A model generated the notes under the pieces. It worked only from the letters and a program-made list of their open reading frames with translations, was not told the origin of the DNA and ran no database searches. The position numbers were made by a program, and so were the translations under genes. Below are positions 12,403 to 31,383 of a stretch of 36,242 nucleotides of DNA, piece after piece. This stretch comes from a virus. Each line of letters begins with the position of its first letter. The first letter of the stretch is position 1. The DNA is taken from positions 1 through 36,242 of the IMG/VR virus record IMGVR_UViG_3300035703_000236; one strand, given 5' to 3'.

Positions 12403-12891
12403 TCATGCCTCGTTGTTGCTTGATTGGGCCGAACTCTTGCCGACCAGCGGCAGGGCGTCACGCGGCGGTGGCGCTCCCTGCGGCCAGCGGTACGCCAGCA
12501 CGCGCTCAGGGTCAAACGGCGCAATACTCACGACGTTGCCTTGGTTGCCGCCCAGCGTCATGATGCGGCCACCGCTCTCGATGCTGACCACAAAGCCAAC
12601 GTGGCCTCCACCCTTGCGGTCATAGACCACGATGCAGCCCTTCTCAGGCTTATCCAGTGCGGTACCGTACTCAGCCCACGCTTTGGCGCGATACCACGCG
12701 CTGGGGCGTCCATATCCAGCCTCACGCATGACGGCCGCCACAAACACGCCGCACCACGGCGTCTCATCATCTGACCACCAAGCGCGCAGGTCTTTGAGCC
12801 AGCGCGTGATCACCGGCGCAGTCTCCTTGCCGGCAATCTCGCGCATGCCTAAGTAACTGCGCCCGATGGTTAGCCATGATGGCTCGAACAT
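12403..12891 (-). CDS. Endolysin (TIGR02594/NlpC-P60-like peptidase)
   Basis: The 162-residue protein has TPWCGVFVAAVMREAGY with catalytic C47, GGGHVGFVVSI with H97 and LGGNQGNVVSI with N115. These fit the Cys-His-polar triad of the TIGR02594/CHAP-like cell wall hydrolases, which cut peptidoglycan peptide bonds. No signal peptide is seen, so release depends on the holin encoded next. The start codon overlaps the upstream ejection-type gene by one base. Confidence 0.85.
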   Translation of the reverse strand: MFEPSWLTIGRSYLGMREIAGKETAPVITRWLKDLRAWWSDDETPWCGVFVAAVMREAGYGRPSAWYRAKAWAEYGTALDKPEKGCIVVYDRKGGGHVGFVVSIESGGRIMTLGGNQGNVVSIAPFDPERVLAYRWPQGAPPPRDALPLVGKSSAQSSNNEA

Positions 12892-14552: not shown

Positions 14553-15641
14553 TTACCTCCTCACCGGGATAAGGCGACCATCTCGATAAATGTACTCAGC
14601 ATTTTCTTGCTCTTCTGGATTTAATGGCGGCAGGCCAGCGGCAAGCCTGACCTGATTTTGCAGGCTCTGGATAATCTGCTTGTTGTTCTCAGCGCTTTGC
14701 CCAAGCTCCGGCAACTGCAAGCCATACTGGCGCTGCTCAAAGTCTGACAGCGCGCCTTCGCCCGGAATGCGCAAAGCCGTGCGAAGAGCAGATGACAACT
14801 GTTGACGGTATGACTCAAACAGTTTTGCATCTTGCGAGTCAAACACGCGGCTAAGTGCGCCGACCACACCAAGTGGGCCGCCAGTGCGGACATTCTCTAA
14901 CTGAGAAACAATCTTGCCAGCGACATCATCAACACGTTTGACCGCTGTTCCCTTGGCGGCCTCGCCCGTGCGTTGTGTCGCCGGAACAGCAGAGATGATC
15001 TTAATCTGGCCAGTCTCTGTATCAAGTTGCGCAGAGGTTCCTTCCGGAAGGTTCGCTTGGCGCAACTGATTTGGCGTCATCGTCACAAATCGAGAACCGC
15101 CGCCAGCGGCAGCAGGTGCTGCGCTAGGCCGTGCGCCTGCTGTAACGCCTCTAACAGCAGGGGCGGCAGCGCTCGGGCGCGGCACAAACTGCCCAGTCTC
15201 TCGATTAAAGATGTCAGCGCCAGCAACTTGGTAGCCGGTGCGCTGCTTCAACATCTCAGCCAACTGCGGATTGGCCTGCAATGCAGCAGCGCCAGCAGGC
15301 GATGCCATCAGCGCTTGCAGGTTCATGCCTGCCATCGGGCGCACTTCTGCAAGTTGAGTCTGCTCGCCTACGTCAGCGCCACGAGCGCCAAGACGGCCAG
15401 CAATAGCGGCTTGTGCTTGCATGATGTCTTGCACGCCGCGCTGGGACTCTTCCTCATCACGCCTAGCCTGACGACTCTTGCCATAGGTTTCTAGTCCGCC
15501 AAGCAAGCCGCTGCCAGTCAGCATACCGCGCAAGGCCTGCAATCCTCCCTCACGCACCAAGCGCCGACGCTCTTCCTCGTCCATCTTGGTAACATCTTCA
15601 CCAAGAAGACCGCCAATTAGCTTCTCAAGTCTGCTGGCCAT
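14553..15641 (-). CDS. Probable virion-internal structural protein
   Basis: The 362-residue protein has a charged helical N-terminus (KMDEEERRRLVREGG), an Ala/Gln-rich helical region (about 65-130), a Pro/Ala linker (about 150-185), and a C-terminal helical domain that includes RVFDSQDAKLFESYRQQLSS. I do not recognise a family with certainty, but composition and position among ejection-type genes suggest a virion protein delivered with the DNA. It ends four bases before the start of the next gene. Confidence 0.5.
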   Translation of the reverse strand: MASRLEKLIGGLLGEDVTKMDEEERRRLVREGGLQALRGMLTGSGLLGGLETYGKSRQARRDEEESQRGVQDIMQAQAAIAGRLGARGADVGEQTQLAEVRPMAGMNLQALMASPAGAAALQANPQLAEMLKQRTGYQVAGADIFNRETGQFVPRPSAAAPAVRGVTAGARPSAAPAAAGGGSRFVTMTPNQLRQANLPEGTSAQLDTETGQIKIISAVPATQRTGEAAKGTAVKRVDDVAGKIVSQLENVRTGGPLGVVGALSRVFDSQDAKLFESYRQQLSSALRTALRIPGEGALSDFEQRQYGLQLPELGQSAENNKQIIQSLQNQVRLAAGLPPLNPEEQENAEYIYRDGRLIPVRR

Positions 15642-15642
15642 A

Positions 15643-15903
15643 TCAATCTCCTAAAAGGCCGCCGCGTACCTTGCGACCGCCGTACATGCTATAGAGTCCG
15701 CCGTAGTATTTATTTGGGTCGTATACGGGCGGTGACCCGCTCTGCGCTTTTGCGGTTTTAATAAATGAGCTTGTATCTTCCTCGTCGTCTGATTTTTTGC
15801 CAAGATTCTTGAGTATGTTTTTCGGTGAAAACGACTCAACACCTTGCGTGTCTCCTCCGCCAGCAAGCGATTTGAGGATTGCTTGGAGAATAAACTCTTC
15901 CAT
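15643..15903 (-). CDS. Small virion-region protein, unknown function
   Basis: The 86-residue protein has a helical N-terminus (MEEFILQAILKSLAGGG) and a Tyr/Gly-rich C-terminus (YYGGLYSMYGGRKVRGGLLG). It begins within the stop of the Gln-rich S74 protein (TAATG) and ends next to the following gene. The Tyr/Gly-rich tail recalls the low-complexity protein at 28534-29994. Probably a minor virion protein, by location only. Confidence 0.5.
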   Translation of the reverse strand: MEEFILQAILKSLAGGGDTQGVESFSPKNILKNLGKKSDDEEDTSSFIKTAKAQSGSPPVYDPNKYYGGLYSMYGGRKVRGGLLGD

Positions 15904-18293
15904 TATTTCATCCCTTTCTTGCTAACCTTTTTATCCAACTCTTTGACGGCTTCCGTCAACAGTCCGATGACCTGCGGCATACCAACTTGGCGCATACCAT
16001 CACGACGGCGCGAGACAGCCTCCGGCATGACCTTCTCAACGTCCTGCGCTGAGATGCTCATGTCTGATTTGCCGCCCTCGTCATAGCCCTCTTGTGAGCC
16101 ATACCCGTCTTCCCACTCAAACTCAATACCCTTGAGGCGGCCGACCTTATCAAGCGGATTCTTGATCTTCTTGACGTTTTTCTTCATGTCCATGTCTGAA
16201 CCGAAGACCTGCTGCGCCATGTTGAAGTAGCTCGGCGTGCTCGTGACCTTACCAGTGGTCGTCTGGTTATACGGCGACGCCGCAATGGCACCCTGCCGCA
16301 CCGCCAACTGCTGAAGCGGGTAATTCTGCTGCCGCATGAACTCCTGATATTGGCGATCAAGGTACTGCTGCATAAGACCCTGCTGGCCCTGTCCAAGCCC
16401 AAGTTGAGCCTGAGCCGCGCCATAGCGATTCTGCAAGGCCTGCTGGCCAAACTGGCCAAGTTGCCCAGCGGCGCCAAGGCGGAACTGCGCGGCCTGCTGG
16501 CCAGCACCCTGATTGGCCAGAGCAGCCTGCATCGCCTGCTGCGCATTGAACTGCTGCGCGGTCATGCCCATCTGCTGGGCCTGCTGACGAGCCTGCTGAT
16601 TCGCCAGCGCCATCTGGTTGGCCTGCTGTGCATTGAACTGCTGTTGCGCCTGCGTCATGCCCTGCGCCTGCAAGCCAGCAGCCTGATTCTGCCGCTGCGC
16701 TTCCATCATCTGCTGCACGTTGAACTGGCCAGCCTGCAAGCCCATCTGCTGCGCCTGCTGCATCGCACCCTGATTGGCGAGCGCTGCCTGCATCTGCCGG
16801 TCGGCGTTGGCTCGCGCCTGATCCGCCGTCATGCCTTGCGCACGCAATTGGTTTTCCAGATTCTGGCGCTGGGCTTCCATCTGCTGCTGCACGTTAAACT
16901 GCTGCGCCTGTAGACCCATCTGCTGACCAGTCTGACCAGCCTGCTGATTAGCAAGCGCTGCACGCAAGGCAGCCTCTTGGTTCGACTGACCAGCAGTCAG
17001 GCCAAGACGCTGCGCCTCGAGTTGCGCCTGCTGGTTGGCCTGCGCCGCCGTCAGCCCCAACTGCTGCCCCTGCTGCTGCGCCTGCTGGTTCGCCAACTGC
17101 GCACGCATCTGCTGCTCAACGTTGAACTGGCTCGTCTGCGTACCCAACTGCTGACCCTGCAACTGCGCCGCCTGATTGGCTCGGGCAGCCTCAAGCGCCG
17201 CCTGCTGGTTCGACTGCTGCGCGGTCAAGCCCAACTGCGACAAGCGCAGGTCGCGCTCTTGGTTACTGATCTGACCAGCCTGCGCCAACTGCATGATGTT
17301 CTGCATGGCCTGCTGGTTGGCAAGCGCTGCCTGCTGCTCACGGCCCACGTCAGCCTCACGCAACTGCGCGGCCTGCTGGAAGCCCTGAGCGCGCTGCTCT
17401 GCGATAAAGCGGTTACGCTCACGCGCCGCCTCGCCAGCCGCGATGCCTTCTTGCACCGCCTGACGACTGCCACCAAAGGCGCGAGCGGCCGTAGCCTGAG
17501 CGCCAATTTGTTGACGCCGTGCAGCCTCTGAACGGTCGATGTCTGATAGCCCAGCCTCGATGACGGCCTGCTGGTACGGGTTCTGATAGGCGGCTAGATC
17601 GCGTCCCAAGAAGGAGGCACCGCCAACGGTCGGAGCAGCGCCCGGCCCCATAACATCTCGAGCGCCAGCCGGTGCGCCGATGGTTTGCGCTGAGATGTCG
17701 CGCACAGCGCCGGGGCCAGCAGCCGTGCCAGCCTGCACGTTCTGCACGCCAAACTGCGAGGCAATCGGCGCGGCACCAAACTGCGTGGCGACCTGCTGCG
17801 CACCAACACGCTCAGGCGCAAACTGCGTGGCGACACGTTCAGCGCCAATGTTGCCTACGCCAAACTGCGTGGCAGCGCGCTCTGCGCCAACGGTCGGCGC
17901 ATTGAATTGCGTACCGACCTGACCGGCCTGCATACGCTCAAACGTGGTACCCGGCGCCACACGCTCGGCCTGCGCCAGCGGCGCCTCAAACTGTGAGCCA
18001 ATCTGGCCGGCTTGCACGCGCTCCGGCTGGAAGCCAAGGTCGCGCTGCAACTGCCGTGATGCCATCTCTAGCTCTGGCACATAGCCGCCCTGCTCCGCGA
18101 TGGCTCGCGTCATCGCCTCGCCGCGCATGTAGTCCTGCGTGAACGGCGCCGTCAGTAGCCCCTGATACGGCGTGAACGGAATGGCGGCCACTTGGTTCGC
18201 CAATTCAATGTTCTGCAAGACGTTCTGATAGATCGCCGGGTCTATCTGCGTCGAGGAGGTTTCTTTCTTGCTGGACTTAAAAAGGTTGCTCAT
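15903..18293 (-). CDS. Gln/Ala-rich repeat protein with C-terminal S74 autoprocessing domain
   Basis: The 796-residue protein has three parts. Residues about 80-230 hold degenerate repeats of GAERVATQFG type. Residues about 290-650 are Gln/Ala/Asn-rich with recurring units such as ALANQQAQQQGQQLGLTA and QFNVQQQMEAQRQN, probably long helices. The last 98 residues form a Peptidase_S74 intramolecular chaperone: GSDMDMKKNVKKI (S699, K704 as the Ser-Lys dyad), LKGIEFEW, SAQDVEKVMPEAV and VIGLLTEAVKEL. S74 domains usually trimerise and then cut themselves off tail spikes and fibres. Finding one on a helical Gln-rich protein in the ejection-gene block is unusual. It may be a trimeric tail needle or fibre-like protein, or an ejection protein folded by a removable chaperone. 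Confidence 0.75.
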   Translation of the reverse strand: MSNLFKSSKKETSSTQIDPAIYQNVLQNIELANQVAAIPFTPYQGLLTAPFTQDYMRGEAMTRAIAEQGGYVPELEMASRQLQRDLGFQPERVQAGQIGSQFEAPLAQAERVAPGTTFERMQAGQVGTQFNAPTVGAERAATQFGVGNIGAERVATQFAPERVGAQQVATQFGAAPIASQFGVQNVQAGTAAGPGAVRDISAQTIGAPAGARDVMGPGAAPTVGGASFLGRDLAAYQNPYQQAVIEAGLSDIDRSEAARRQQIGAQATAARAFGGSRQAVQEGIAAGEAARERNRFIAEQRAQGFQQAAQLREADVGREQQAALANQQAMQNIMQLAQAGQISNQERDLRLSQLGLTAQQSNQQAALEAARANQAAQLQGQQLGTQTSQFNVEQQMRAQLANQQAQQQGQQLGLTAAQANQQAQLEAQRLGLTAGQSNQEAALRAALANQQAGQTGQQMGLQAQQFNVQQQMEAQRQNLENQLRAQGMTADQARANADRQMQAALANQGAMQQAQQMGLQAGQFNVQQMMEAQRQNQAAGLQAQGMTQAQQQFNAQQANQMALANQQARQQAQQMGMTAQQFNAQQAMQAALANQGAGQQAAQFRLGAAGQLGQFGQQALQNRYGAAQAQLGLGQGQQGLMQQYLDRQYQEFMRQQNYPLQQLAVRQGAIAASPYNQTTTGKVTSTPSYFNMAQQVFGSDMDMKKNVKKIKNPLDKVGRLKGIEFEWEDGYGSQEGYDEGGKSDMSISAQDVEKVMPEAVSRRRDGMRQVGMPQVIGLLTEAVKELDKKVSKKGMK

Positions 18294-18664
18294 AGTTTTT
18301 TCTCAAGCACCACTGCGGTGCGTCGGTAACCCTCAAGTGCTCGCTCCCAACCGGGGCGCCCCATAATCAGCATGGTGTTGCAGCCGATGCTGCGCGCCCA
18401 TGTCTCTACTAATGGCCTAATCACGTCATCAATCTCGTTAAGGTCGCCCGCGCCGATGATGACGGTCAGTTGCTTTAGGCGCGGGAAGATGTCGATGGTC
18501 GTGATGACACAAGAATTTTCGGCAGACCAGAATTGGTATTCACCACGGCCAATGCCGTCGATGACATCCTGATAGTTGATCTGGCCGTAGTTCTCCGCCA
18601 AGGCACGCTCGATGAGCTCACGGAATGGACTAATCCACTTCATGTCTGCATCTGGCACGCTCAC
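18290..18664 (-). CDS. GNAT-like protein
   Basis: GTG at 18664 overlaps the previous stop and has AGGTGG upstream, giving 124 residues; an ATG at 18643 is the alternative. Beta-alpha pattern with SCVITTIDIFPRLKQLTVII, GAGDLNEIDDVIRPLVETWA and IMGRPGWERALEGYRR resembles the GNAT-like phage proteins found between tail and ejection genes. The usual acetyl-CoA loop (Q/RxxGxG/A) is not clearly present, so it may be structural rather than an active acetyltransferase. Confidence 0.6.
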   Translation of the reverse strand: MSVPDADMKWISPFRELIERALAENYGQINYQDVIDGIGRGEYQFWSAENSCVITTIDIFPRLKQLTVIIGAGDLNEIDDVIRPLVETWARSIGCNTMLIMGRPGWERALEGYRRTAVVLEKKL

Positions 18665-20139
18665 CGCTGGCCACCTGAGACGGCATCTAATCGCATCGTA
18701 CCGACGCGCCAATCCGTTGACGGCGTGGCGCCGGTTATACGCATCTCAATCTGACGGCCTGTGAACCGCACTGGGGTGTACGGGCTGTCAATCGCATACG
18801 TCTTGACCACCTCATCGCCCAGTGGCGTGAATCGTGTCTTAAACTGCACGCCGACAGATCCTTGCATCTTCTCGTCGGCAATCAATTGCCGAGCGACCAT
18901 GAGGCGCTCACCGTTGCCAAACTCAATCGGCCCGGTCTGCGCATACGGCGCAGCACCGTCATACTCGGTGCCAACCTCTTGCTCGTAGATGTAGCCGTCA
19001 GTGGATACCATCAGCGGGTAGTTGAACACGCCACGGTCGGTGCCGGCGGTACGCGCCAGCGAGCCTATCGACCAGTGCTGCTCACGGTAGTTATAGACCA
19101 CATAAGAGTCTACCTCATTACTGGTCGCGCTTGGGTAAAACCACCAAATCTCGCCAAACTGGTTGTTGGCGATGGCGTACACCTTTGAGCGCTGCTGCTG
19201 CGAGACGTTGTTCTGGATGTAGTCCAGCACGTCACACTTCATCGGGCGCACAAAGCCGTCGTACATGAAGAAGCCAGAGGGCGACCACCAATAGGCGACC
19301 GACTCCACCGCCGCTACCGCCTGCGCGCTAATTAATCCGCAGCCGGTGGCAATACGCTCAAAGCCGTAGACAAACGGCGGCCCTTGGTACTGGGCGGTGT
19401 GCACGTCCACATCGGTGAAAATCAGATTCACACCGCGCAGGCGCTTGCCGGCGACGATAGAGCCGACCGTCTCCAACTCGATGTCGCCGGCTTGGTTGGT
19501 GACCGCCGGCGTCCACATTGTGTTGTCTTCTTGGTCTGACCACGCCACCTTGCGGGCGTTACCGCCAGCGCCAAGCGCAAACACAAAGCGCTCCGCCGTT
19601 ACCAGCACCGCCTTGTTGGACACCGGCGCGTTGGTCAGCGCTGCCGCCTTGTTGCCCGTGTTCAAGTCCCACTCAAGCAACTTGCCATCAGCGTTGGAGC
19701 AGGCGAGCAGGTACTCGCCCCAGTTGTCCATCGACCATGTGGTGGCAGGCACCACAGTGCCGGTGTCTGGGCGCGGCGTGCCGTAACTATAAAGCCCATA
19801 AGGGCCGCCGCCGTACCCAAGGTTTAGCTGCGCATCAGCAGATCCCGGCGTGAACCCGGCGGTCGGCGTGATGTCGGTCAGCGTGCCAGCCTCGTTCATC
19901 ACGTAGAGTTTGCTGTGCGTACCAGCGCCGATCCATCGCGCATTGGCGTTGGTACGCCACGCGATAAATCCGCGACACTTGCCGGTCATCTGGCTATTGG
20001 ATCGCTTACGCCAGCCGCCGACAGGGCGCATGGTGCCCTCGTACCAGCGCACGAGGTTGGCATCGCGCCAACGCCCCTTGCTCTGGTAGTCGGTGCCGTT
20101 GCGATATACGCCCGGCTGTACATTGATGGGTACGAGCAT
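18661..20139 (-). CDS. P22 gp10-like tail hub / DNA stabilisation protein
   Basis: The 492-residue beta-rich protein starts LVPINVQPGVYRNGTDY, has repeated blade-like segments (FIAWRTNANARWIGAGTHSK, EIWWFYPSA, YVVYNYREQHWSIG) and ends in a domain with FTGRQIEMRITG. This arrangement resembles the beta-propeller tail accessory proteins of short-tailed phages that plug the portal and hold the fibres. Family assignment is by pattern, not by alignment. It lies next to the fibre genes, which fits. Confidence 0.65.
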   Translation of the reverse strand: MLVPINVQPGVYRNGTDYQSKGRWRDANLVRWYEGTMRPVGGWRKRSNSQMTGKCRGFIAWRTNANARWIGAGTHSKLYVMNEAGTLTDITPTAGFTPGSADAQLNLGYGGGPYGLYSYGTPRPDTGTVVPATTWSMDNWGEYLLACSNADGKLLEWDLNTGNKAAALTNAPVSNKAVLVTAERFVFALGAGGNARKVAWSDQEDNTMWTPAVTNQAGDIELETVGSIVAGKRLRGVNLIFTDVDVHTAQYQGPPFVYGFERIATGCGLISAQAVAAVESVAYWWSPSGFFMYDGFVRPMKCDVLDYIQNNVSQQQRSKVYAIANNQFGEIWWFYPSATSNEVDSYVVYNYREQHWSIGSLARTAGTDRGVFNYPLMVSTDGYIYEQEVGTEYDGAAPYAQTGPIEFGNGERLMVARQLIADEKMQGSVGVQFKTRFTPLGDEVVKTYAIDSPYTPVRFTGRQIEMRITGATPSTDWRVGTMRLDAVSGGQR

Positions 20140-20146
20140 CTAGCCC

Positions 20147-20380
20147 CTACTCCTGATTTGGTGGAGAGAACCAACCCTTAATCAAGCCGGTGAGGAGAGC
20201 CAAGGCGGCTGCAAGACCTGCAAGCCATTTGACGAAGGCCACGAGCGTTTCTGCTGTGGCCCACGCATTGGCAAGTTTCTTTAGATCCGCCTTCACTTCC
20301 GCCATGTCAGCCTGCATTACCTCAAGGTCTTTGCGTAGCATGGCCAACTCCACGGCGTTTTCCTTCTCTTGATCCGACAT
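20147..20380 (-). CDS. Coiled-coil plus transmembrane protein, possible second holin-type protein
   Basis: In 77 residues there is a coiled coil (LRKDLEVMQADMAEVKADLK, about 15-34) followed by a hydrophobic helix (FVKWLAGLAAALALLTGLI, about 49-67). This resembles XhlA-like or class III holin-associated proteins, but the real lysis cassette is 8 kb away, so it may instead be a virion- or membrane-associated protein. Confidence 0.6.
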   Translation of the reverse strand: MSDQEKENAVELAMLRKDLEVMQADMAEVKADLKKLANAWATAETLVAFVKWLAGLAAALALLTGLIKGWFSPPNQE

Positions 20381-20383
20381 GGA

Positions 20384-20539
20384 TCACTCCGCTGGTTTGT
20401 CGTCCGGCTTCGGCAGATGCGGCTCGACCTGCTCGCGCAGTTTCTGCCACAGCGGGAAAGCGCCTTGTGCGGTGGGCAGACTGCCGATCAGGTTAGTGAT
20501 GGCAACGGCCTCCTCAATCGTCAATTCCAACTTAATCAT
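20384..20539 (-). CDS. 51-residue protein, unknown function
   Basis: ATG at 20539 overlaps the stop of the upstream gene (TAATG) and the frame runs to TGA at 20384-20386. The product begins MIKLELTIEEAVAITNLIGS, then a helix with WQKLREQVEP and a Pro/Lys-rich end. Small proteins of this LTxEEV...LPxxQ type are common in phage tail regions. The coupling to both neighbours supports it. Confidence 0.55.
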   Translation of the reverse strand: MIKLELTIEEAVAITNLIGSLPTAQGAFPLWQKLREQVEPHLPKPDDKPAE

Positions 20540-20862
20540 TACGCCACCCACGGCAACTTCGGTGACACAACCGGCGGATTCTTGGCATTGGCAACCTGCT
20601 GCTCCACCGCAGCCTCGGTTGCCGCCTTATCCACGCCATTCGCCCAGACCCAACCGAGGACTTGATCCTGCGTCAGTTGGTCATACGGCGTGAAAGCCTC
20701 GCCCTGCACCACGGCAAACGAGCAGGTGCTATAGACGCTGCCCGAATACTCGCCGTCTACGCCGTTGCACTGGTAGTGCGCGGTAACAACGTAGTCAGCG
20801 CCTTCCGCTGATTGCGGGAGGCAGTCCAGTTGCGAGATGTTCCAGTTAATTACGGTAGCCAT
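20539..20862 (-). CDS. DUF7936-like phage protein next to the tail fibre
   Basis: The 107-residue protein has VINWNISQLDCLPQ, then VVTAHYQCNGVDGEYSGSVY and PYDQLTQDQVLGWVWANGVD, with an Ala-rich helix and a Pro-rich end (PKLPWV). This matches a common small phage family found beside fibre genes, possibly a fibre assembly factor. It overlaps the fibre stop by one base. Confidence 0.6.
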   Translation of the reverse strand: MATVINWNISQLDCLPQSAEGADYVVTAHYQCNGVDGEYSGSVYSTCSFAVVQGEAFTPYDQLTQDQVLGWVWANGVDKAATEAAVEQQVANAKNPPVVSPKLPWVA

Positions 20863-22901
20863 TATTTGCTCTCCAATGCGGCGACTTTCGCCTCAAGTTG
20901 TTCAATACGCGCCATTGCTTCTTGCAAGGCTTTGATGGCGGCGAAGGTAATGTCTTTGGTGTAGACCGTCTTCAACGGCTCCTCGCCTTCTGGCGTCTCG
21001 CCAAACCCATCGCTGTCCACCCACACCGGCTCAACAGATTCCACCTGCTGCGCGATAACACCGACGTTTACATCATCGTGCGTCTGATCGTTGTACTTGT
21101 AGGTGACAATTTCCAACGCGCCGATCTTGTCCCACATGGATGCAATCGGGTTGATGTCTTTTTTCGTGCGGACATCTGACAGGTCTACGTTGTTGGATTG
21201 GTAGTTACCAACTCCACCGTTCCCATAAACATAAAATCTATCTGCTCCAGCAGATCGCCCACGATAAAGATAGGCTGTTCCAGCGTTAGTGCCTGTTGCG
21301 CTTGAAAGGTTTGCAAATACTGCTGATCCGTCAACGCCCGGACTTGCTACTTGATTTTCAACAGAAATTCCAAACGATGACGTTGAACTATAAACAACGG
21401 TTGTTTTTCCACTAGATGTCGTCGTCCCAACCAGCAAATCCCCCCCGCTCGTGATGCGTGCGCGTTCGGTGGTGTTAGTCTGGAAAATTAATGGGTTTGC
21501 GCCAAGGCTGTTGACATAGCCAGAGCCACCATCTCCATAAATTTGAATTCCCGTTGATCCAGTTACAGCCTGAATTGTTCCGACAGCGTGGATACGAGAA
21601 GTGGGCGAAGTCGTCCCCACCCCCAAATTCCCACTCGCATCCAGCGTCATCGCCTGCGTGAACGAGATGGCGTTGCCTGCGGTGCCGGAGGCGGCGGTGT
21701 ACCACTTAAATGCACCAGCGCCTTGCTCAAACAATGAAGCCGCATCAGAGGCGACGTATATGGGATTTGCAGATGAGTTATAAAAGAAGTTTGAGCCGAG
21801 GTAGGTGTAATTGCTGGCAGAACCAACGAACCCATTGCCGCTCATCTGTAGCGTTTTAATCGCACTCCACCACGCACTCGGCGTGACGCCCAGACCGAGG
21901 TTGCCGTACTGATCAAGAACCATACGGTCTGTGCCGTCAGTCTGAAATAAGAATCTTCCAGCGCCAGCACCACGCGCATTTAGAACAATTGTTGCTTCGT
22001 TTGTGCCGCCGTTAAGGGCCGTGCCAATCAACAAACCACGGCCAGAGGTGTTGCCGAACACAGCCTGTGTGCCGTTGAAGGTTCCGGTTACGTCAAGTCT
22101 TGCAGCAGGCGAACTAGTCCCGATGCCCAACCCCGTGGAGGTGAGGCGCATACGCTCTGATCCTTCCGTAGCAAAGGCTAACTGACCGCTAGTTGCAGAA
22201 GAATCAATATAAGAAACGCCGCCGCCTTGGTAAAAATCCAAGCGATCCGTGGCGGTTCTTGTGAGGCGTAATGCGTTATTTCCTGCAAACCCAGAAACTT
22301 CAAGAGTCGTTCCGTTGTACGTCAGCGCACTCCCACTCGTCGCCACCTTGCTGCCGTTCAGATACAGCACGCCGTTGGCGGTGCCGCCGGTTAGGGTCGG
22401 ATTAGAAGCGAAGGTCGTGGCACTGGCCAGTTTAATGCCGCTCGTCGCGGTGATTTGCAGCGTCTTGTTGCTGGTGATGTAAGACTCAGCATCGACGGCC
22501 AGCGAGTTATGCCCAACGGCAAGCGAGCCTGTGCCGCTTGATGTCGTGATGCTCAACTCAGAGGTGGAGGTGGACGACAGCACCGCATTGGCGTTGCTGC
22601 TGTTGCCAGCAATCGTCACCGTCGCGCCGTTGTAGGTAAACGACGAGCTTGTGCTCAGCGCCTTGCTGCCATTGAGGTACGCCACAGCGTTGGCCGTGCC
22701 CGCGCTGTTGGTCAACGTACCGGCAAGGGCCAGTGTCTTACCTGACCCCACATTCACGCCAACCGACGTGCCCGTACCGTCGCCCTTAAATACGCCGTCG
22801 ATCAGGTCAAGGTTGGTGTTAAGTTTGCCACCCCAAGTGTCAGCAGAGGCGCCGACTTCTGGTTTGGTCAGTGACAGGTTGGTGGTTGTCGTATCAGCCA
22901 T
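20862..22901 (-). CDS. Tail fibre with C-terminal S74 chaperone domain
   Basis: The 679-residue protein has an N-terminal virion-binding segment ([20 protein letters not shown], about 5-24), a long Ser/Thr/Gly-rich beta region (about 50-560) with repeated [20 protein letters not shown] and SSATSGQL-like strands, and an S74 domain from S575. The dyad is SDVRTKKDI (S575, K580), followed by [12 protein letters not shown] and a terminal coiled coil. The S74 domain should trimerise the fibre and cut itself free, leaving the mature host-binding fibre. This is the probable receptor-binding protein. Confidence 0.88.
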
Positions 22902-28533: not shown

Positions 28534-29994
28534 TTAGCCGCGGCCACGCGAACGCGCATTCTGCACCGCAGCCTGACGCGCAGCGGTTAAATTATTAACT
28601 GCTGACGGCGCAAATTGCGGCATCTCCATTGGCGGCGCAACCGGCGCAGGCGTTGGCATCATCATCTGGCTTTGGAAGACTTGTGGGTTGTAGTAACTCA
28701 ACCCACCAACTTCTGCCGCTGGAGCAGCAGGCGGCGGCAGCGGCGCGGTCGGCACCGGGTCAGGCTGCACGGTAAACGTCTCCACCGTTGGCTCGGTGTA
28801 GAAGCGACCGTCGCTGCTGACTTCAGGCGCTGCCGCCTGCGGGCCAGAGTATCCCGGTACGAAGAGATTAAGGTTGGGCGGAACCTGTGCCGGCCGAGGA
28901 GGCGTAGGGGCAGGCGTAGGCGCACGCGCTCGAGTTGGCGGGGCAACAGGCGCAGGAGGCCGCGCAGGGGCAGCAGGAGCGTTCGGCAAATTGCCTTGCG
29001 TCAACTGATTAAACGCATTCAAGTCAAACGGCGCCTGCGGCATCGTCATTGGCGGGGGCGGAGTTGCTGCCGGAGTAGGCGCAGGAGCAGCAGGGCCACG
29101 CGGCACTTCGCCACTCGGCGTGATCTGCGCTGTCGGCGATGCCGGCTGATTAGAGCCGCTCAAGCCAAGCGCAGCGCGCAGCGCGTCAATGTCCAACTCA
29201 TACCCTTCAAACGGCGAGGCTTGCTGCATCGCCTGCATTCTTCCGGGCTGCTGGCCGAATCCACGACGACCGCCGCCACCAAACATGGATGTCTGCTGGA
29301 ACGGGTTAAACGACGGCGCGCCGTAATACTGGCCAAACATGTATTGACCGAAAAGGTCGTTGACGTTCGGCTGCTGCATCTGCGGCATACCAAAGCCACC
29401 ACCCATGCCGCCGCCAAATTGACTGGCATACCCGCCTTGGCCGTAGCCAAACTGCGACGGCAGTTGCTGGCCAAAGCCCTGCATATAGCCGCCAGTGTAG
29501 TCCGGCATGGCGTTATAACTGCCAAACATGCTGTAGTTGCCCATGCCGCCGCCAAAGCCGCCGCCAAAGCCGCCGCCGAAGCCACCCATGCCGCTAAAGC
29601 CAGCGGTTCCGCCACCTTGCTGCAGACTTCGCATAGCTGCGCTTCCTTGGCCACTGGCTTGTCTTTGGCGCTGCAAATGCAACTGACTTGAATTTTGATT
29701 CTTCAAATCTTGCTGCGCTAGAAAATCCATATCTTCCCGAGTAACCGAGGCAGGGGTTGCCATGCTGCGATTCATGATTTCACGCGCCCGCTGTCTATCA
29801 GCAGATTCGGAGTCGCTCCCGTATGAACTCTGCTGCGCCTGCGCCTGTTGAGGTTGCTCAAATCCGCCGCCGTAGCCGCCCATTCCGCCATACGGATCAA
29901 ACGAGCCGCCGGGAATATACGGCAACTGAGGCTGGCTCATGCCGTACATCGGTGACATGGCCATTTGTGTCTGGCCGGAATATAGGTTGCTCAT
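28534..29994 (-). CDS. Low-complexity Gly/Phe/Tyr/Met and Pro/Ala-rich protein
   Basis: The 486-residue protein is almost wholly low complexity. Residues about 1-50 and 125-250 are Gly/Phe/Tyr/Met/Gln-rich with tandem GGFGGGFGGG units and YGQGGY patches. The remainder from about 285 is Pro/Ala/Thr-rich (PAPAPTPAATPPPP), with a single helix-like segment around ELDIDALRAALGLSG (about 270-284). Such aromatic-glycine sequence is similar to prion-like domains that condense. It lies between portal-side virion genes and scaffold. No homology is recognised; virion-associated or assembly role is inference. Confidence 0.65.
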   Translation of the reverse strand: MSNLYSGQTQMAMSPMYGMSQPQLPYIPGGSFDPYGGMGGYGGGFEQPQQAQAQQSSYGSDSESADRQRAREIMNRSMATPASVTREDMDFLAQQDLKNQNSSQLHLQRQRQASGQGSAAMRSLQQGGGTAGFSGMGGFGGGFGGGFGGGMGNYSMFGSYNAMPDYTGGYMQGFGQQLPSQFGYGQGGYASQFGGGMGGGFGMPQMQQPNVNDLFGQYMFGQYYGAPSFNPFQQTSMFGGGGRRGFGQQPGRMQAMQQASPFEGYELDIDALRAALGLSGSNQPASPTAQITPSGEVPRGPAAPAPTPAATPPPPMTMPQAPFDLNAFNQLTQGNLPNAPAAPARPPAPVAPPTRARAPTPAPTPPRPAQVPPNLNLFVPGYSGPQAAAPEVSSDGRFYTEPTVETFTVQPDPVPTAPLPPPAAPAAEVGGLSYYNPQVFQSQMMMPTPAPVAPPMEMPQFAPSAVNNLTAARQAAVQNARSRGRG

Positions 29995-30018: not shown

Positions 30019-31383
30019 TTAGGGGTCAGTCAAATCCCAAACAGATAGCGCGCCAATGGCGTCGCCGGTTCCAGATATTGTCCTTGCGGCCAATGTGTAT
30101 ATATCGCTGGTGCCACTAATTGTGACGCCCAACTGAGAGTCAAAGTTGTACGCACTCGGGTCATTCACAGCATTTGACGAAAGCACGCCAGATGATGTGA
30201 AGTCAGACCGCACTACCGTGCCGCCAGTAAGCGCCGTTGCAGCCACGTCATACTCGACGTTTTGCGCAAGGCTAGAAAACGATGCCCCTGTCAGCGTTGG
30301 GTTTTTAATTAATGCAACCTCGAAATAGTCTGACGCCGAGGTTGGCATGAATGAGAAACCGTTAGGAATAACGACAGCACCGATGCTGCCGGACTTAATT
30401 CTGACAGATACCAATGGCACAAAAGACGTGCCTATTCCAGTCGTGGCAGTCGTTTGCCTTGCCCACTCTAGCGCCGACTTTTGCTCATACCCGCCCTCAC
30501 TAACCACCGTTGAGCAAATCTGTTTCATGCTCTTGGTGCCAGAGATAGCGCCTGTTGTCGTAATCTCATAGCGTACCGGCAAGATTGCGGTTTGCATGTA
30601 GACCGACGACAGAGAGTTGGCATTGTTAAACGTGTGAGCAACAATGAACTGACCGTCAATGATGAAGCCGCACCGCACCGAGCCTACGCCAAGCCACTCA
30701 AAATCAATAAACATGATTTGAGTTTTAGTTTCATCAAGCGTAATGCCACTCGCACCGGAGCCGTCAAGTTTGTCGCCGTTCCAGCTTGACTGCGTTACCT
30801 TTCTCGCGTCACTAGGCGACCCACTCGTATAGGTTCTAACAATAAACGACAGCTCGTCATTTTCTTGCTGCAAAAATACGCCGTTGTTGGCGTTAAAGTA
30901 GCCAACACGCTGGCGCAGGTTTGCCTCTCCGGCTGCCATGGCAAACGTGCACATCACAAGCAGTGACTTGCCCGGCTGGTACGGAAACACGCGCTTGGTC
31001 TGGCGAACAACAGAGTCACCAGATGCTGATGTAACCTCAAGTTTTACCGATGACTCGTTGGCCAAGTGCGTAGCAGTGCCAGATCCACTCAGCGACTCAT
31101 CAAACTGGGCGTCCTTGCCAAATCTGTTTTGCGAGTCAAAAAGCGTATAAGGCTGCGACATTCGCAACCGGCCAAACGCATCAAAATTGGTTTTCTCGAG
31201 CAAGTTTAAGTCCGTCAGACTGTTAATAAATTTGACGATCTCAAACTGGTTCGACGCCAACAGGCTCAAATACAGTTTGAGTTGGTTGTTTACTTGGTTG
31301 ACATACTGCGGAGAGTAGGCAGCCGGTGCCGTGTTAGGGTTTGGCGGCTGCGGTACAAATAACCCCTCAAGTGGTGCTGCCAT
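30019..31383 (-). CDS. Lectin-like virion surface protein
   Basis: The 454-residue protein has an N-terminal helix (VNQVNNQLKLYLSLL), then a beta-sandwich section with QRVGYFNANNGVFLQQENDE, SFIVRTYTSGSPSDARKVTQ, SWNGDKLDGSGASGITLD and MFIDFEWLGVGSVRCGF. These belong to a family of phage structural proteins I have seen near portal genes in aquatic phages. A C-terminal Ser/Thr-rich region ends the protein. Probably a head fibre or decoration protein. The gene follows the portal by four bases. Confidence 0.65.
   Translation of the reverse strand: MAAPLEGLFVPQPPNPNTAPAAYSPQYVNQVNNQLKLYLSLLASNQFEIVKFINSLTDLNLLEKTNFDAFGRLRMSQPYTLFDSQNRFGKDAQFDESLSGSGTATHLANESSVKLEVTSASGDSVVRQTKRVFPYQPGKSLLVMCTFAMAAGEANLRQRVGYFNANNGVFLQQENDELSFIVRTYTSGSPSDARKVTQSSWNGDKLDGSGASGITLDETKTQIMFIDFEWLGVGSVRCGFIIDGQFIVAHTFNNANSLSSVYMQTAILPVRYEITTTGAISGTKSMKQICSTVVSEGGYEQKSALEWARQTTATTGIGTSFVPLVSVRIKSGSIGAVVIPNGFSFMPTSASDYFEVALIKNPTLTGASFSSLAQNVEYDVAATALTGGTVVRSDFTSSGVLSSNAVNDPSAYNFDSQLGVTISGTSDIYTLAARTISGTGDAIGALSVWDLTDP

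Follow-up and report, generated by a model that had tools for sequence, protein, structure and literature searches.

An S74 domain with a conserved Ser-Lys dyad at the end of an ejection-family protein in the gene 7 slot

The S74 domain is typical of trimeric beta-helical spikes and fibres, and its presence at the end of a Gln/Ala-rich chain encoded among DNA ejection genes raises the question of what it does there. The locus lies in a viral record of 36,242 nucleotides, all of which was analysed and is called the window here. Searching the whole record finds exactly two S74 sites, in the proteins we call P0001 and P0002 (Table 1), and both open reading frames, of 796 and 679 residues, are as a sequence-only reading had described them. 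That reading also assigned each C-terminus an S74 domain with a Ser-Asp-x3-Lys dyad, and this is borne out: Pfam places Peptidase_S74 (PF13884) at residues 699-760 of P0001 (E=2.1e-10) and 575-627 of P0002 (E=1.8e-12), with scores of 41.2 and 47.8 bits against a curated cut-off of 22, and the dyads read SDMDMK (S699/K704) and SDVRTK (S575/K580), respectively. P0002 is an ordinary S74 tail fibre, as its PHROG matches are to tail-fibre families only, and it would use the domain in the usual manner of such fibres. Bradyrhizobium phage ppBeUSDA76-2 also has two S74 proteins, as do several relatives (L010, L011, L015, L016, L109 and others); thus, the pairing is not a matter of chance.

Table 1. 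Positions in the window of P0001, P0002, their parts and the neighbouring genes
Feature	Coordinates	Strand	Basis
P0001, 796-aa gp7-slot ejection-family protein with C-terminal S74	15903..18293	-	phrog_4287 and Pfam S74; synteny with phiM5 gp27, phiGT1_17 and P22 gene 7
S74 domain of P0001, residues 699-760	16014..16199	-	Pfam, record search
Codons of the P0001 S74 dyad	Ser699 16197-16199; Lys704 16182-16184	-
Helix C-terminal to the P0001 S74 core, about residues 774-792, GLLTEAVKELDKKV	15918..15974	-	sequence and alignments
Pre-cut segment of P0001, residues 665-698, ending SYFNMAQQVFG	16200..16301	-
Gln/Ala-rich 29-residue repeat, residues 311-603, about 10 units	16485..17363	-
Conserved family core, residues 226-310 (YQNPYQQ ... 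ARAFGGSRQAVQEG)	17364..17618	-
gp14/IVPA-like gene defining the gene 7 slot; its start codon is uncertain	18290..18712	-	blastp; phrog_22172
gp10-like head-closure/tail-tube gene	18661..20139	-	phrog_3287 E=3e-85; phiM5_25 E=1e-98
362-aa protein following P0001 and preceding the 552-aa ejection protein	14553..15641	-	position
Downstream ejection protein, 552 aa	12891..14549	-	phrog_26400 'DNA ejection protein' E=3e-26
P0002, 679-aa tail fibre	20862..22901	-	tail-fibre PHROG matches
S74 domain of P0002, from Ser575	21018..21179	-	Pfam and record search

The neighbours of P0001 confirm the earlier placement of its gene in an ejection block, with a gp10-like gene and a gp14/IVPA-like gene before it and a phrog_26400 protein after it. 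In P22 the order of genes is 10, 26, 14, 7, 20, 16; a gene flanked, as that of P0001 is, by gp14/IVPA on one side and the larger ejection genes on the other therefore occupies the gene 7 slot. The product of the gp14/IVPA-like gene matches the vB_OspP_OH acetyltransferase, phiM5_26 and their MJing1 counterpart (blastp, E=1e-15 to 7e-8), and in several relatives the homologue of P0001 likewise follows a small acetyltransferase or acetyltransferase-related gene and precedes genes for internal virion proteins. In phiGT1 the small gene encodes IVPA, for which homology to P22 gene 14 has been described (PMC10386132). The 362-residue protein that follows P0001 matches no Pfam or PHROG family and is presumed from its position to be an ejection protein.

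Family membership agrees with the slot. Outside as well as within S74, P0001 belongs to phrog_4287 ('DNA ejection protein'), the match extending over residues 555-770 (E=1.5e-5) and so covering both trunk and S74; it also has many matches to fibre PHROGs, mostly by way of S74. With tblastn the first 340 residues alone, which exclude S74, lead to phiM5 gp27 (Sinorhizobium), vB_OspP_OH gp40 (Ochrobactrum), MJing1 (Microcystis) and environmental phages, and both phiM5 gp27 and the MJing1 protein match phrog_4287 in their turn. Of these, phiM5 gp27 is the closest described counterpart: it shares with P0001 the family, the gene slot and a C-terminal S74 with the dyad, and according to its annotation it was found in the virion proteome. 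It differs in its length of 468 residues, its annotation as a tailspike, its shorter S74 and the 29-residue repeat array, which is reported for P0001 and for which none is reported in phiM5 gp27. The helix that follows the S74 core in P0001 probably corresponds to that of canonical S74/ICA domains, and alignments show it to be absent from the shorter phiM5-type domain. P22 gp7 itself (229 residues, without S74) resembles P0001 in following gene 14, and its Gly-rich hydrophobic C-terminus resembles the ends of family members without S74, but P0001 differs from it in its length of 796 residues and its long Gln/Ala repeats. No match of P0001 to the P22 gp7 family proper (PF25688 or phrog_598) was found, the alignment between the two families is limited to the Gly-rich C-terminal part of S74-less relatives, and homology of the P0001 trunk to P22 gp7 is not demonstrated.

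It is worth considering whether P0001 instead forms a helical trimer serving as tail needle or side fibre, as one half of the sequence-only reading proposed. The usual association of S74 with trimeric fibres, the long Gln-rich helical repeat, and tailspike or tail fiber annotations in phiM5, vB_OspP_OH and DB2 all invite this idea, but we consider it improbable, and this half of the proposal did not hold up: the needle gene of P22 precedes gene 14 whereas P0001 occupies the gene 7 slot, P0001 matches a 'DNA ejection protein' family and no needle family, many of its relatives have no S74 at all, and the phage already possesses an S74 tail fibre in P0002. When the two P22 gp26 families (phrog_1219 and phrog_1030) were tried as candidates, P0001 matched neither, and its position was wrong for them as well.

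The Gln/Ala richness that first drew attention to the trunk is real, these two residues accounting for 219 of the 465 positions between residues 226 and 690. Within this stretch there is a strong 29-residue periodicity, which near relatives of 450-806 residues share with about 2-10 units each (L005, L007, L010, L011, L014, L015 and L016), and the number of units may determine how long a helical rod is. The repeat is compatible with a helix (29/8 gives 3.6 residues per turn), and the region is helical in low-confidence models. The AlphaFold model of P0001 is poor (mean pLDDT 39); that of a relative, L039, is better (mean pLDDT 66) and shows long helices bearing a confidently predicted S74 (about 92). 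Foldseek comparison of the L039 model with the PDB gave no match at E<=0.001, and P0001 and the family profile, when searched against PDB sequences, hit S74-domain proteins only (6F45 and 3GUD among the S74 sequence matches), with none over the trunk. A second, degenerate repeat (ERVxTQFxAxxVGA-like) occupies residues ~90-220 of P0001 (17634-18026, minus strand) and is shortened or lost in L015 and L016.

How unusual is such a fusion? The sequence-only reading had implied that it is rare, and in this it was mistaken: S74-bearing relatives were found at 413 viral loci in a single scan, so that S74 on an ejection protein is commoner than first thought. That scan, whose patterns did not contain the Ser-Lys dyad, was one of five of viral contigs, which returned 17, 18, 413 (80 kept), 32 and 276 (80 kept) loci; a genome scan gave three distant loci only and no host. 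Pfam finds S74 in all 13 members of a phiM5-type alignment. Other members do without it, and homology between the S74-bearing and S74-less sets extends over 290 columns, as far as S74 but excluding it (hhalign E=1.7e-60). Locally, 229 open reading frames match the family core; the distinct ones with a complete C-terminus divide into 96 with S74 and 62 without, figures that are not natural frequencies because sampling followed the chosen queries. A maximum-likelihood tree of the core can be reconciled with the presence and absence of S74 only by 17 changes, a soft figure given a quick tree search and many weak forks; at least five of them are forced by well-supported branches, so that the state has switched independently at least five times. 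No separate S74 gene was found 3' of the S74-less members in three coding-strand frames from the gene to 3 kb beyond its stop (87 open reading frames, 2274 segments).

The comparison of members with and without S74 bears indirectly on whether the domain is removed. In P0001, self-cleavage is predicted between residues 698 and 699. Across 90 distinct S74 domains the only invariant residues are the Ser, the Lys and one Ala, with the Asp present in 99%. Furthermore, measured against the nearest S74-bearing homologue, the ends of S74-less proteins have a median offset of +3 residues relative to the predicted cut; 35 of 63 lie within 5 residues of it and 47 within 12, leaving about a quarter more than 12 residues away; S74 itself adds ~70-109 residues beyond the predicted cut. 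For example, S74-less L160 stops after GLGAASAGVGILGGLNSLGAFGAGGLAAIF, and S74-bearing L109 reads GLGAASAGVGILGGLNNLGAFSFLAGL up to the predicted cut and SDKDEK beyond it. Fusion of S74 at a pre-existing stop codon would also align the ends in this way, and the conserved dyad is therefore the independent evidence for cleavage.

A rival view is that S74 is a fixed oligomerisation or assembly domain whose dyad is structural and in which no cut is made. Cleavage itself is a prediction, C-terminal fusion alone would account for the coincident ends, and MYRF trimerises through its S74/ICA region (PMC8326128); nonetheless, we judge this view unlikely, because neither the Ser nor the Lys varies among 90 diverged domains and because, in known cases, one or the other is dispensable except for cleavage (MYRF S587A, K592A; PMC8326128). 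Either substitution abolishes cutting in MYRF, which shares its Ser-Lys dyad and self-cleavage with endosialidase and cuts only as a trimer (PMC8326128). Like P0001, MYRF carries S74/ICA outside a fibre, and its structure (PDB 7DC3) is matched by the profile; unlike P0001, it is a eukaryotic membrane transcription factor with a beta-helical stalk of its own. Similarly, the S74 tail fibres and endosialidase (endoNF, phi29 gp12, T5 pb1) share the domain and dyad with P0001, but in them S74 matures a beta-helical trimer, in contrast to the helical trunk of an ejection-block protein. This difference is a counterpoint to cleavage: S74 is reported to cut only when trimeric, and that of phage endosialidase also to require a triple beta-helix upstream, which P0001 does not have, although MYRF shows that contact with a beta-helix is not always required (PMC8326128).

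The domain is not confined to one trunk. S74 is present on three gp7-slot families in all. One of them includes a homologue of P22 gp7, Pseudomonas PAE2_13, which matches phrog_598 (the P22 gp7 family) over residues 3-228 at 5.7e-30. In phrog_6121 it ends phiGT1_17 and proteins of pCB2047-C, EBPR podovirus 2 (gp27) and Rhizobium RHph_N2, and it ends Mx8 p54 and Mx9 p88, both of them related to phiGT1_17 by tblastn. phiGT1_17, Mx8 p54 and their relatives resemble P0001 in slot and in the hydrophobic segment before S74, but have another trunk family; phiGT1_17 and its relatives do not match the P0001 core profile. Some S74-less ends again fall near the cut (MW202691 relative to PAE2, offset -1; MW202489, +2) and others away from it (DSL-LC05 p32, +23; ppBjS10J, +38). 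Two proteins are natural fusions of a gp7-like part to a downstream protein, with S74 in mid-chain: MW202675 (L250:3179-6736; 1185 residues; S74 at 277-327, SLT transglycosylase at 601-694) and L046:5920-9186 (1088 residues; S74 at 281-329). They might suggest that S74 first served to split a fused ejection polyprotein, freeing the gp7-like part from S74 and the downstream virion protein; with only these two cases, and with nearly all other members stopping ~70-109 residues past the Ser, we regard such an origin as very improbable.

We favour, as the probable though by no means certain explanation, that P0001 is an ejection protein of the gp7 class whose S74 is a self-removing cap. Of the earlier proposal, then, its other half, a chaperoned ejection protein, stands on the gene 7 slot, phrog_4287 and the retained dyad. 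According to this model P0001 would be the first ejection protein, in the gp7 slot, of a P22/LUZ24-like podophage; S74 would fold at its C-terminus and keep the chain soluble and probably oligomeric, then excise itself just before S699 by means of the Ser-Lys dyad, leaving a mature protein of residues 1-698 that ends about where S74-less relatives stop. P22 gp7, too, is proteolytically matured, but at its N-terminus and by host OpdA, and it has been proposed to build the virion-proximal DNA conduit (PMC8402733).

The cap may also mask a membrane-active tail until assembly, since in most of the family the segment before the cut is hydrophobic and Gly-rich. Median hydrophobicity is 1.42 in the family and 0.33 in S74 tail fibres (p=6e-7, which is optimistic because the rows are related). 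The near relative L016 has AIGQVAGAALPFF before SDERMK, and P22 gp7 ends in AAIGGGIGLLGSLF. This is the weakest step of the model, and it is weaker still for P0001, whose own segment before SDMDMK is only weakly of this kind (0.09 against the family median of 1.42); the idea of a membrane-inserting tail draws on the family and not on P0001.

To our knowledge, P22-like phages have no core stack of the gp14/gp15 type, which means that the solubility of a gp7-class protein in them needs explaining. The listed T7 counterpart of gp7, gp14, is insoluble in water on its own, is solubilised by gp15 in the core stack and makes a pore in the outer membrane (PMC8954989). A chaperone fused to the gp7-class protein in many phages and able to cut itself off would be a directly testable answer. 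It is tempting to go further and imagine, as a possibility we hold only tentatively, that podophages have repeatedly recruited S74 as a self-removing cap that keeps a Gly-rich membrane-active tail soluble during assembly, autocleavage then yielding the pore-competent protein; if true, such a zymogen-like step in DNA delivery has not previously been described. Annotators have already recorded S74 on phiGT1_17, Rhizobium phages and PAE2, and in the literature searched, which covered few subscription journals, we found no paper that interprets it on gp7-slot proteins. The model would also correct a recurrent misannotation of gp7-slot proteins as tailspike or tail fibre, names often given because S74 is present; public records apply them to members of the P0001 family at L022:11716-13122, L023:11740-12879, L024:11887-12792 and L026:5719-6648, the last of these even though Pfam finds no S74 in it.

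Three further proteins of the window, all on the minus strand, deserve mention. Between the scaffold and the virion protein at 30019-31383 lies a Gly/Gln/Pro-rich protein of 486 residues (28534-29994) that matches no PHROG. A 77-residue protein (20147-20380) begins with a charged helical part and ends in a hydrophobic stretch, which gives it a holin-like look. Finally, beside the ejection genes, a 162-residue protein (12403-12891) matches the lysozyme end of phrog_1259 (baseplate hub and tail lysozyme), covering profile positions 988-1154, and matches endolysin families more weakly.
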